Source of the DNA: Actinomycetes bacterium
GTDB lineage: Bacteria; Actinomycetota; Thermoleophilia; Miltoncostaeales; Miltoncostaeaceae
Length of the DNA stretch: 38,567 nt
Reading direction: 5' to 3'
Assembly: GCA_024639225.1 (NCBI GenBank)
Contig: JAHEIS010000007.1
Coordinates: 1-38,567 of the forward strand
The translations under genes were made by a program, and so were the position numbers. The notes under the pieces were generated by a model. The model saw only the letters and a program-made list of their open reading frames with translations, did not search any database and had not been told where the DNA came from. Positions 727 to 4,855 of this stretch are shown here, piece after piece. The number at the start of each line of letters is the position of its first letter. Positions within the stretch are counted from its first letter, which is position 1.

Positions 727-3402
727 TCAGGCCTCCCGGCGTGACAGGTACTCCGCGGGGTGGAGGGCGCGGACCCCGGCGAGCTCGGCGATCTGGTGAC
801 GGCACGACGTGCCCGCGGCGACGAGATCCGCCGCGGGGCCAGCGGCGATGGCGACTCCGAGCCCGTGCGCGAAGATGCGGCGTGACAGGCCGGGGTGCTC
901 GTAGCCGAACGCGCCGGCCATACCGCAACACCCCGCGCCGCTGTCGCGGGCTCCGCTTCCGCACGCCGACACGGCGCCCTCGGCTCCGCCGAGCGCTCGC
1001 GTGTGGCAGTGCACGTGGACCAGCGGCTCCGCTGGAGGGGCGGTCAGACCGACGCTCCGCACGACGTCCTCGAAGCTCGCGCTGGCTGCGCGGACGGCCG
1101 CCGCGTCATCGTCGCCCGGCAGGAGCTCGCCCGACTCGTCGGTCAGCATCGACAGGCAGGACGGTTCGAGCACGACGATGTCCTGCCCCGCCCGCGCCGC
1201 GGGCGCGAGCGCCCGCACGGTGCGGGCGAGGCGTCGGCGAGCGAGGCCGATCATCCCCGCGGAGTAGGCCGTCCGGCCACAGCAGCCCGGCGCGATGACG
1301 GCGACCCGGCGCCCGGCCTCGCGGAGGACGCGGATCGCCGCCTCGCCGACTTCCGGCGAGAGGTGCCGGGTGAACGTGTCGGCCATGATCGTGACATCAG
1401 CGGGGTTCGCGCCCGGCGGCGGGCGCCAGGTGGGCGCGGGACGGGGCAGAGTGCGCCCCGCGCCAAGCGACGCGATCCGGGCCGCCACCCCCGCAGCCCG
1501 CGGCGCGCGGCCGGCGACAGCCAGCAGATTCGGCGTCGCCGCGCTGAGGCGCTGGGCGGGCTTCGGCCGGTCGTGCGCGAGCGCTTCGGCCTTCATCCGC
1601 GACATGTCGACCGCTGCCGGGCACTCGCGGGCGCACGCCTTGCAGCTCAGGCAGAGGCTCAGCGCCTCGCGCAGACCGGGATCGGCCAGGCCCTTCGCGA
1701 GCCGGCCCTCGACCGCCGCCGCGAAGATCACGGCCCGTCCGCGGGTCGAGTGGCGCTCGTCGCCGAGGGCCTGGTAGCTCGGGCACATCGCACCCGAGTC
1801 GGAGCGGCAGAGTCCGTTGCGGCTGCAGAGCGTGGCGGCCCGGGCGAGCCCGCCTTCCGGGCCGAAAGGAAGCGCGGCGGGGCCCGGGTCCGCGCGGTCC
1901 CGCGCCGGGGCGAGATCCGAGTCGAGCGGCTCCGGGTCGACGATCACACCGGGGTTGAGGACGCCGTCGGGATCGAGGCGCCTCTTCAGCTCGCCGAACG
2001 CGGCGATCGTCTCGGGCCGGTACATCCGTCCGAGCAACTCGCTGCGGGCGCGGCCGTCGCCGTGCTCTCCCGAGAGAGAGCCGTCGTGGGACGCGACGAT
2101 CTCGGCCATGCCTTCGGCCAGCCGACGCATCTGCCGGACCTCGGCCGGCCGCGAGAGATCCATCATGGGGCGGATGTGCAGGCAGCCCACGCTGGCGTGC
2201 CCGTACCAGATTGCGAGAACCTGCTCGTCGCGAAGCATCGCGCGGGCCTCCCGCACGAAGTCGCCGAGGCGATCGGGCGGGACCGCCGGATCCTCGATGA
2301 ACGGCACCGGCCGTGGATCCCGGCCGGCGGCGCGGTCGGTCACCGCGGCCTGCGCCCGGCCGATACCGAGTCGGCGTGCGGCCCAGATGTGCTCCTGGGC
2401 GGTGGGATCCGTGACGATCCGGGCCCCGGGTATGGCCTGGAGGGCGTCCGCGACCTCGGCCGCCGTTCCGCTGTGTTCGACGACCAGCATCGCGCCGGGC
2501 CGGCCCTCGGCGAAGTCCAGCAGATCGACATCGGCGGGAGGGCGGTTGCGCGGGTCGAGCAGATGCTCGTCGATCATCTCGATTGCCGACGGGTCGGCGC
2601 GCAGCAGCGCCGGTACGGCTGCCGCGGCCTCCTCGACCGAGTCGTACCCCAGGAGGGCGATCCCGCGGGCGGCCGGCAGCGGGACCAGGTCCAGCTCGGC
2701 CTCCAGCGTCACCGCGAGCGTGCCCTCGGTGCCGGCCAGCAGCCGCGGCCAGTCGGCCTCGCTCAGCGCGCCGAGGTCGTAGCCCGAGACTCGGCGGAGA
2801 AGCGATGCGGGTTCGGCCCTGACCGCAAGATGCCGCGCGTCCTCGAGTGCCGACGGCGCCGCCGATCCGGCGGTCAGCCGGACCCGCCGTCCGTCCGCCA
2901 TGACGACGGTCAGCGCCCGGACATGGGTCGCGGTGAGCCCGTGGACGACCGAGCGCATCCCGGCCGAGTTGTTGGCGATCATCCCGCCGAGGGTCGCCCG
3001 ATCGGCGGTGGCGACGTCGGCGCCGAAGATCAGCCCGTGGGCGGCGGCCGCGCGGTTGAGGTCGCCGAGGACGGCCCCGGGCCCGACCCGGGCGCGCCGC
3101 CCGGCGGGGTCGATTCGGATCTCGTTGAGCGCCGAGGTGTCGACGACCAGGCCCCGGCCGACGGTCTGCCCGGCGAGGCTCGTGCCGGCGCCGCGCATCG
3201 TCAGGGGCACGCCGGTCAGTCGGCACGCCTCCACGGCCGCTTCGAGGTCCGTGGCCGCGCCCGCCCGCAGCACCGCCAGAGGCGTCCGCGCGTACAACGA
3301 GGCGTCGCGTGAGTACATTTCGCGCGACGCCGCGTCGGAGCGCAGTTCACCGGCGATCTCGGGGGCGAGGCGTTCGCTCAACAGGCGGGCATCCATCATC
3401 AC
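727..3402 (-). CDS. FAD-binding oxidase fused to (Fe-S)/CCG-domain protein (GlcD-GlcF / D-lactate dehydrogenase-like)
   Basis: N-terminal PCMH-type FAD domain (RGAGTSLAGQTVGRGLVVD...GGMIANNSAGMRSVVHG), C-terminal ferredoxin cysteines (CLSCKACARECPAAVDM) and CCG motifs (APGCCGRTAY, GCCGMAGAFGYE). Confidence 0.88.
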   Translation of the reverse strand: MMMDARLLSERLAPEIAGELRSDAASREMYSRDASLYARTPLAVLRAGAATDLEAAVEACRLTGVPLTMRGAGTSLAGQTVGRGLVVDTSALNEIRIDPAGRRARVGPGAVLGDLNRAAAAHGLIFGADVATADRATLGGMIANNSAGMRSVVHGLTATHVRALTVVMADGRRVRLTAGSAAPSALEDARHLAVRAEPASLLRRVSGYDLGALSEADWPRLLAGTEGTLAVTLEAELDLVPLPAARGIALLGYDSVEEAAAAVPALLRADPSAIEMIDEHLLDPRNRPPADVDLLDFAEGRPGAMLVVEHSGTAAEVADALQAIPGARIVTDPTAQEHIWAARRLGIGRAQAAVTDRAAGRDPRPVPFIEDPAVPPDRLGDFVREARAMLRDEQVLAIWYGHASVGCLHIRPMMDLSRPAEVRQMRRLAEGMAEIVASHDGSLSGEHGDGRARSELLGRMYRPETIAAFGELKRRLDPDGVLNPGVIVDPEPLDSDLAPARDRADPGPAALPFGPEGGLARAATLCSRNGLCRSDSGAMCPSYQALGDERHSTRGRAVIFAAAVEGRLAKGLADPGLREALSLCLSCKACARECPAAVDMSRMKAEALAHDRPKPAQRLSAATPNLLAVAGRAPRAAGVAARIASLGAGRTLPRPAPTWRPPPGANPADVTIMADTFTRHLSPEVGEAAIRVLREAGRRVAVIAPGCCGRTAYSAGMIGLARRRLARTVRALAPAARAGQDIVVLEPSCLSMLTDESGELLPGDDDAAAVRAASASFEDVVRSVGLTAPPAEPLVHVHCHTRALGGAEGAVSACGSGARDSGAGCCGMAGAFGYEHPGLSRRIFAHGLGVAIAAGPAADLVAAGTSCRHQIAELAGVRALHPAEYLSRREA

Positions 3403-3435: not shown

Positions 3436-3464
3436 TTGAAAGGCCTCACCCGAGTCGGTAACAT
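3436..3464 (+). promoter_or_regulatory. Sigma70-like promoter for the tuf leader: TTGAAA (3436-3441), 17-bp spacer, TAACAT (3459-3464)
   Basis: Near-consensus -35/-10 hexamers with optimal 17-bp spacing, upstream of tuf in a divergent intergenic region. Confidence 0.65.
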
Positions 3465-3516
3465 GCCCAGGCTTTGCGGAGCGGTGGGTGCTTCGTGCGC
3501 GCGGTGGAATTTTTGG

Positions 3517-3545
3517 TGCGCGGCCCTGGTGGCCGCGCATTTTTT
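3517..3545 (+). terminator. Intrinsic terminator/attenuator in the tuf leader
   Basis: TGCGCGGCC-CTGGT-GGCCGCGCA (9-bp perfect stem, 5-nt loop) followed by TTTTTT. Confidence 0.75.
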
Positions 3546-3619
3546 CGCCGGGACCCCATGCTTAGCGATGTATCGGCCCGCCGAGTGGGCCCTGTCCGAG
3601 TGCCCTAAAGGAGCATTTG

Positions 3620-4807
3620 ATGAGCAAGGAAAAGTTCGATCGTTCGAAGCCCCACGTCAACGTGGGCACCATCGGTCACGTCGACCATGGAAAGACGACG
3701 CTGACCGCTGCGATCACCAAGGTGCTCGCCGACTCCGGTTCGAGCGACGCCGTGGCCTTCGACGAGATCGACAAGGCGCCGGAAGAGAAGGAACGCGGCA
3801 TCACGATCGCGACCGCGCACGTCGAGTACGAGACGGAGAACCGCCACTACGCGCACGTCGACTGCCCGGGTCACGCGGACTACGTCAAGAACATGATCAC
3901 GGGCGCCGCCCAGATGGACGGCGCGATCCTCGTGGTGTCCGCGGCCGACGGCCCGATGCCCCAGACGCGCGAGCACATCCTCCTGGCGCGCCAGGTGGGC
4001 GTGCCGGCGATCGTCGTCTTCCTCAACAAGGCCGACCAGGTCGACGATGCCGAGCTGCTCGAGCTCGTCGAGCTCGAGGTCCGGGAGCTGCTCTCCGAGT
4101 ACGAGTTCCCCGGCGACGACGTCCCGATCGTGACCGGCTCCGCGCTGAAGGCTCTCGAGGGCGACGCGGATGCGGCGGGCCAGATCATGGAGCTCATGGC
4201 GGCCGTCGACGAATACGTCCCGATGCCCGAGCGCGAGGTCGAAAAGCCCTTCCTGATGCCGGTCGAGGATGTCTTCACCATCACCGGCCGTGGCACCGTC
4301 GCCACCGGCCGCGTCGAGCGCGGCAAGGTCAACGTCGGTGAGGAGATCGAGATCGTCGGCATGACCGACAAGACCGAGACCACCACCGTCACGGGCGTCG
4401 AGATGTTCCGCAAGCTGCTCGACGAGGGCGTTGCGGGCGACAACATCGGCGCGCTGCTTCGCGGTGTCGAGCGCGAGGAGATCCAGCGCGGCCAGGTGCT
4501 GGCCAAGCCGGGCTCGATTACGCCGCACACCAAGTTCACCGCTCAGGTGTATGTCCTGAGCAAAGACGAGGGCGGTCGTCACACGCCGTTCTTCTCCAAG
4601 TACCGCCCGCAGTTCTACTTCCGTACGACCGACGTGACCGGAGAGGTCACGCTTCCGGACGACACGGAGATGGTCATGCCGGGCGACAACGCCACCATGG
4701 AGGTCGAGCTGATCCAGCCGATCGCCATGGAGGAACAGCTTCGATTCGCCATTCGCGAAGGCGGCCGTACGGTCGGCGCGGGTGTCGTGGAGAAGATCAC
4801 GGAGTAG
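3620..4807 (+). CDS. tuf: Elongation factor Tu
   Basis: [36 protein letters not shown]...[58 protein letters not shown] upstream. Confidence 0.99.
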
Positions 4808-4817
4808 ACGGCGTCAG

Positions 4818-4855
4818 ACGGCCCCGCTCCCTTCCGGGGGCGGGGCCGTTTCTGT
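4818..4855 (+). terminator. Terminator-like hairpin between tuf and rpsJ
   Basis: ACGGCCCCGCTCCC-TTCC-GGGGGCGGGGCCGT, 14-bp stem with one G-U, followed by interrupted T tract (TTTCTGT). Confidence 0.7.

Follow-up and report, generated by a model that had tools for sequence, protein, structure and literature searches.

A predicted structured 5' leader of the tuf-S10 operon conserved in one family of Thermoleophilia

The region 3470-3619 of the window (the whole stretch of 38,567 nucleotides that was analysed) was best explained as a structured leader that one Thermoleophilia family conserves at the 5' end of the tuf-rpsJ-rplC-rplD... operon, acting after transcription initiation and not mainly as an intrinsic terminator; a probability of about 0.62 was assigned to this reading. 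Comparison of the family's sequences showed a fixed promoter geometry and a predicted architecture of three helices, P1, P2 and P3, of which P2 covaries. We infer that the leader would act on the stability of the mRNA 5' end and on ribosome loading, and possibly as a binding site for an operon-encoded protein, for which uL4 may be the natural candidate ligand by analogy with the E. coli S10 leader. Its effect would probably lie in mRNA stability, translation or autogenous control, rather than in a conserved attenuator. The features are summarized in Table 1.

Table 1. Positions of the tuf leader elements and neighbouring features in the window
Feature	Position	Strand	Remark
Divergent upstream gene, FAD-linked oxidase	727-3402	-	Domains FAD-oxidase_C, FAD_binding_4, Fer4, CCG
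Promoter TTGAAA-N17-TAACAT	3436-3464	+	-35 at 3436-3441, -10 at 3459-3464
P1 hairpin GCUU-UGCG-GAGC, predicted 5' end	3470-3482	+	Found in 32/32 leaders
P1-to-P3 linker	3483-3514	+	Exceeds that of relatives by about 16-20 nt (alignment)
Outer helix P2, 8 bp	3502-3550 (3502-3509 with 3543-3550)	+	MFE fold, covariation, permutation test
Inner helix P3, TGCGCGGCC-CTGGT-GGCCGCGCA	3517-3539	+	Nearly invariant in 11 genera
T6 tract	3540-3545	+	Lineage-specific
P4, predicted hairpin GGCCCGCCGAGUGGGCC	3575-3591	+	Single-sequence fold
tuf Shine-Dalgarno AGGAG	3609-3613	+	Predicted partly paired
tuf (EF-Tu), first gene of tuf-S10 operon	3620-4807	+	
Terminator-like hairpin of the tuf-rpsJ gap, 13-bp stem + TTTCTG	4819-4854	+	

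Genome setting and promoter

The source genome is a 2.47-Mb MAG of Thermoleophilia having 70% GC (GC from 229 kb sampled). The family was compared through 42 genomes of 12 genera, with the window's genus represented by one genome only, and the leader comparison covered 32 family leaders of 11 genera, one pair of which is identical. Outside the family, 53 of 54 loci of the class have fusA upstream of tuf, compared to none of the family loci, all of which were examined. At every locus extending that far, rpsJ comes after tuf. As family tuf genes have no fusA upstream, tuf and the S10 ribosomal operon are expected to start at a promoter of their own. In the window the usual place of fusA in Thermoleophilia is occupied by the FAD-linked oxidase gene, which lies on the minus strand and is indeed divergent, as the first-pass annotation had stated; the same was seen in one relative (L011), judged from the ORF sequence. 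The rpsL gene of the window's genome is on a separate contig (C112), near an EF-G-type GTPase gene. The ancestral str-S10 cluster appears to have been split between fusA and tuf, with the oxidase gene at the break in the window and its relatives. The leader probably arose once tuf, cut off from rpsL-rpsG-fusA, needed its own start.

The near-consensus promoter proposed by the first-pass annotation was recovered exactly where it had been placed, and the start claimed near 3471 agrees with the predicted start at 3470-3471. This promoter is the sole sigma-70-like match in 12 kb, where 0.4 was expected. The relatives mostly carry TTGCGR-N16/17-TAnnnT. The distance from the end of the -10 element to P1 is exactly 5 nt and is kept across the 32 leaders and 11 genera; for three of the 32, the promoter scan scored another register higher and the alignment places the same element there. 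The proposal of a dedicated promoter and a structured RNA ahead of the tuf/S10 operon was supported by this geometry and by the hairpin kept across 11 genera. As a candidate leader peptide, the leader contains only one short ORF, of 16 codons (3558-3608), which lacks a Shine-Dalgarno sequence and ends at that of tuf; no counterpart was seen by eye in the two relatives compared (L004 and L008).

Architecture and covariation of the leader

All 32 leaders share a common layout in which the promoter is followed by P1 at the predicted 5' end and then by the outer helix P2, with P3 within it. Transcription would start at the foot of P1 or beside it. P1 is a small hairpin with a tetraloop, of the UNCG or GNRA type in 22 of the 32 leaders, and it would be followed by a two-tier stem in which P2 encloses the GC helix P3, itself almost unchanged among the leaders. 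The pairing probability of P3 in the window was 0.96-1.00, and its sequence is altered in genus g2 (for example GCGCGCU/AGCGCGC). The P2 arms differ from leader to leader (CCCGG/CCGGG, CCUGGU/GCCAGG, GGCCUC/GAGGCC, and GGUGGA/UUCGCC in the window), that is, the sequence is free and the pairing is retained. Loop and linker sequences vary among the leaders as the helices persist. In the window P2 is embedded in the 16-20 nt insertion, and the MFE fold places the last three Ts of the T6 tract in the P2 3' arm, where they are predicted to be paired. Within the linker of the window, GTGCGCG also repeats part of the P3 5' arm.

The covariation of P2 was evaluated in a 26-row trimmed alignment with the P2 arms registered by hand; all six pairs showed changes on both sides across the family, the cells with both-side changes numbered 50 against 23.9 +/- 2.7 after shuffling, and the covariation score was 0.851 vs 0.275, with every slid register worse. 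Alignment A5 leaves out three sequences. Because a hand choice of the arms leans towards pairing, a duplex-energy test on unfitted 5' and 3' segments was added. Own partners paired better than permuted ones, with only 28 of 20000 permutations as good, and 142 of 20000 when one leader per genus was used. P3 hardly varies and hence yields little covariation.

An independent recovery of the leader was obtained with a covariance model (R1) built from ten relatives, the window being excluded, as was genus g2 from the seed. The model scored the window leader at a modest 26.6 bits (E 9e-6 in 401 nt), and the leader was the single match in the window's whole own genome. It matched 31 of 42 family genomes and 11 of 12 genera, nearly always at tuf with a few weak matches elsewhere, and gave 2 marginal sites in 357 other genomes of the class. 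The element stands consistently ahead of ribosomal-operon genes, as is typical of ribosomal leaders. R1 did not find the two leaders of genus g8 (L015 and L017). These tuf leaders fold differently, and L015 has a GCAGACG/CGUCUGC hairpin near its 5' end. The search of Rfam gave no family at gathering score in the window except a tRNA; at permissive thresholds the best scores for the leader were 15.9 and 17.1 bits, far below the cut-offs and regarded as noise.

Two further hairpins, P4 and one sequestering the tuf Shine-Dalgarno sequence, were predicted in single sequences and were rejected after cross-pairing tests, in which 19260 of 20000 permutations were as good for P4 and 3113 of 20000 for the sequestering helix. 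As neither showed covariation, a translational switch is unproven.

Terminator-like features and alternative explanations

The perfect 9-bp hairpin with a 5-nt loop and six Ts, described in the first-pass annotation as a complete intrinsic terminator, is exactly present and corresponds to P3 followed by the T6 tract; the window thus has a GC hairpin directly followed by a U tract within the leader (3517-3545). The standard terminator scan did not list this site and a separate custom scan did. The 30-mer hairpin has a folding energy of -18.9 kcal/mol (z = -4.8), and none of 200 shuffles was as stable. The background for the hairpin and T-run counts was 229 kb of the window's own genome. It contains no second stem of at least 7 pairs with at least 5 Ts directly behind it, and neither strand has another six-T run; first-order Markov resamples gave no such hairpin with a T run. 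The fold energy and this uniqueness indicated that the feature is not a chance one. A GC palindrome lying beside a T run by accident, which a genome of 70% GC might be thought to offer, has negligible probability, as none was expected in 229 kb and the position and fold of the hairpin are conserved across 11 genera.

The conservation of the hairpin and T tract in relatives was compared, and of the two parts only the hairpin is kept. Downstream of P3, the longest run of Ts counts six in the window, five in L007, four in L006, L008, L009, L073 and L074, and at most three in the other 25 of the 32 leaders. The T run that gives P3 its terminator-like appearance is therefore, judged from these sequences, largely peculiar to the window's genome, and T6 would have arisen in the window's lineage at the P3-P2 junction. 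Since the run is short in most relatives, a U tract is not needed for the function of the leader across the family, and intrinsic-terminator attenuation has no support as the general mechanism. The antiterminator suggested earlier (GTGCGCGCGG, 3495-3504, within the P1-to-P3 linker) was also rejected, because its pairing probability with the P3 3' arm was 0.000 and no mutually exclusive fold was predicted; the segment is unique to the window's genome and absent from all aligned relatives.

An attenuator in which P3 and T6 form an intrinsic terminator of modulated use, controlling the whole tuf-S10 operon, was accordingly considered unlikely. It would account for the strong GC stem with its T6 tract at the sole such site of the 229 kb, and for the T5 of L007 and the T4 of five other leaders; weak termination would also fit the U-rich P3-P2 linker of several genera (GUUUUGUG and similar). 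A precedent exists in the E. coli S10 leader, where uL4 is believed to trigger premature termination at a Rho-independent site (PMC10931766). This explanation is weakened by the runs of at most three Ts in 25 of 32 relatives, by a competing antiterminator that is neither predicted nor conserved, and by the scarcity of intrinsic terminators in mycobacteria of the same phylum, for which the need for a U tract is disputed among the studies cited there (PMC12288462). In a survey, Actinobacteria and certain atypical species were those with the fewest predicted terminators (PMC2965389). Attenuation is possible in the window's genome, but it is not the conserved feature, and any terminator activity may be confined to the window's lineage. 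The other proposal of the first-pass annotation was a stable RNA of about 75 nt. Such an RNA, set free with its end at the T tract and working in trans, would make use of the complete promoter and terminator-like end of the window; it is improbable in view of the T tract missing in most relatives, the lack of any matching Rfam sRNA family and the finding of the element essentially only at tuf.

A purely passive structure, in which P1 and the P2/P3 stem do no more than shield the 5' end of a strongly expressed mRNA and slow its decay, without a ligand, can be held tentatively as a serious minority view; its probability overlaps that of the structured leader acting after initiation, because it is a narrower version of it. 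The position of P1 at the predicted 5' end, the UNCG or GNRA loops and the persistence of helices amid varying loops and linkers are in accordance with such shielding, while the P3 sequence is kept far beyond the needs of pairing and P2 covaries in register, and these two observations suggest a specific shape. A leader that binds a protein would not usually show such poor conservation of its unpaired nucleotides as is seen here, and this counts against the best explanation. A more elaborate and rather improbable version would have a family-specific leader sense an operon product (uL4, another ribosomal protein or EF-Tu) and control EF-Tu together with the S10 cluster, having evolved upon the separation of tuf from str and serving also as an attenuator in the window's lineage.

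A better conserved site was found in the tuf-rpsJ gap. Among 31 full-length tuf loci of the family, 30 carry at this position a GC hairpin related to that of the window, and a TTTTCTTTC tail is common. The hairpin of L006 is a different one, and no T run follows immediately in L013 or in the g10 genus. We infer that this hairpin is a better candidate for partial termination than P3 with T6. Such partial termination, if true, would make the tuf mRNA more abundant than the mRNA of the ribosomal genes, and a monocistronic tuf mRNA is the predicted product.

Comparison with known leaders

Other sequences resembling tuf leaders were noted within the class. In the fusA-tuf gap of another family (L063, L069, L079, L081, L084 and L086), a hairpin GGTGCGGC...GCCGCACC lies shortly after a -10-like TATACT; L086 has GGTGCAACC...GGTTGTGCC in its stead, and four or five Ts often come next. 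This arrangement resembles an analogous tuf leader. In the same gap of a further family (L037, L038, L040 and L042), TATATAGTAACTCGCTCTTTAGG ahead of tuf looks like a promoter with a boxA-like GCTCTTTA behind it; this element is variable in L035 and L055.

The leader described here is a structured leader of a translation operon that is not in Rfam. It provides a covariation-supported RNA leader for such an operon in a little-studied actinobacterial class, and it is tied to a genome rearrangement that separated tuf from the str operon. It also illustrates that a lineage-specific T run can give a conserved structural hairpin the appearance of a terminator. Titles and abstracts of the Miltoncostaea literature contain nothing on transcription.

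The 5'-terminal stem-loops of the ompA type stabilise mRNA through a hairpin placed on the first transcribed base or beside it. P1 likewise stands at the predicted first base, and the predicted leader adds the covarying P2/P3 stem to it. The uL4-controlled S10 operon leader of E. coli, which acts through transcription attenuation and translation, is likewise a structured 5' leader with a terminator-like hairpin before rpsJ-rplC-rplD..., whereas here tuf is the first gene, there is no Rfam match, the U tract is unconserved and the ligand is only a candidate. The rpsL-leader attenuators of the str operons rpsL-rpsG-fusA-tuf (PMC2965389) also lead genes of ribosomal proteins and elongation factors, but they precede rpsL and not tuf, and they are recognized by a terminator that is unconserved in the window's family. 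The available portion of the work of Eckert and Weinberg 2020 (PMC7247131) mentions neither a tuf leader nor, for Actinobacteria, an S10 or L4 leader, L4 being given only for Archaeoglobi and S10 for Firmicutes. The ribosomal leaders presented in that portion are likewise lineage-restricted, covarying RNAs placed directly before a ribosomal operon, as is the leader of the present family.
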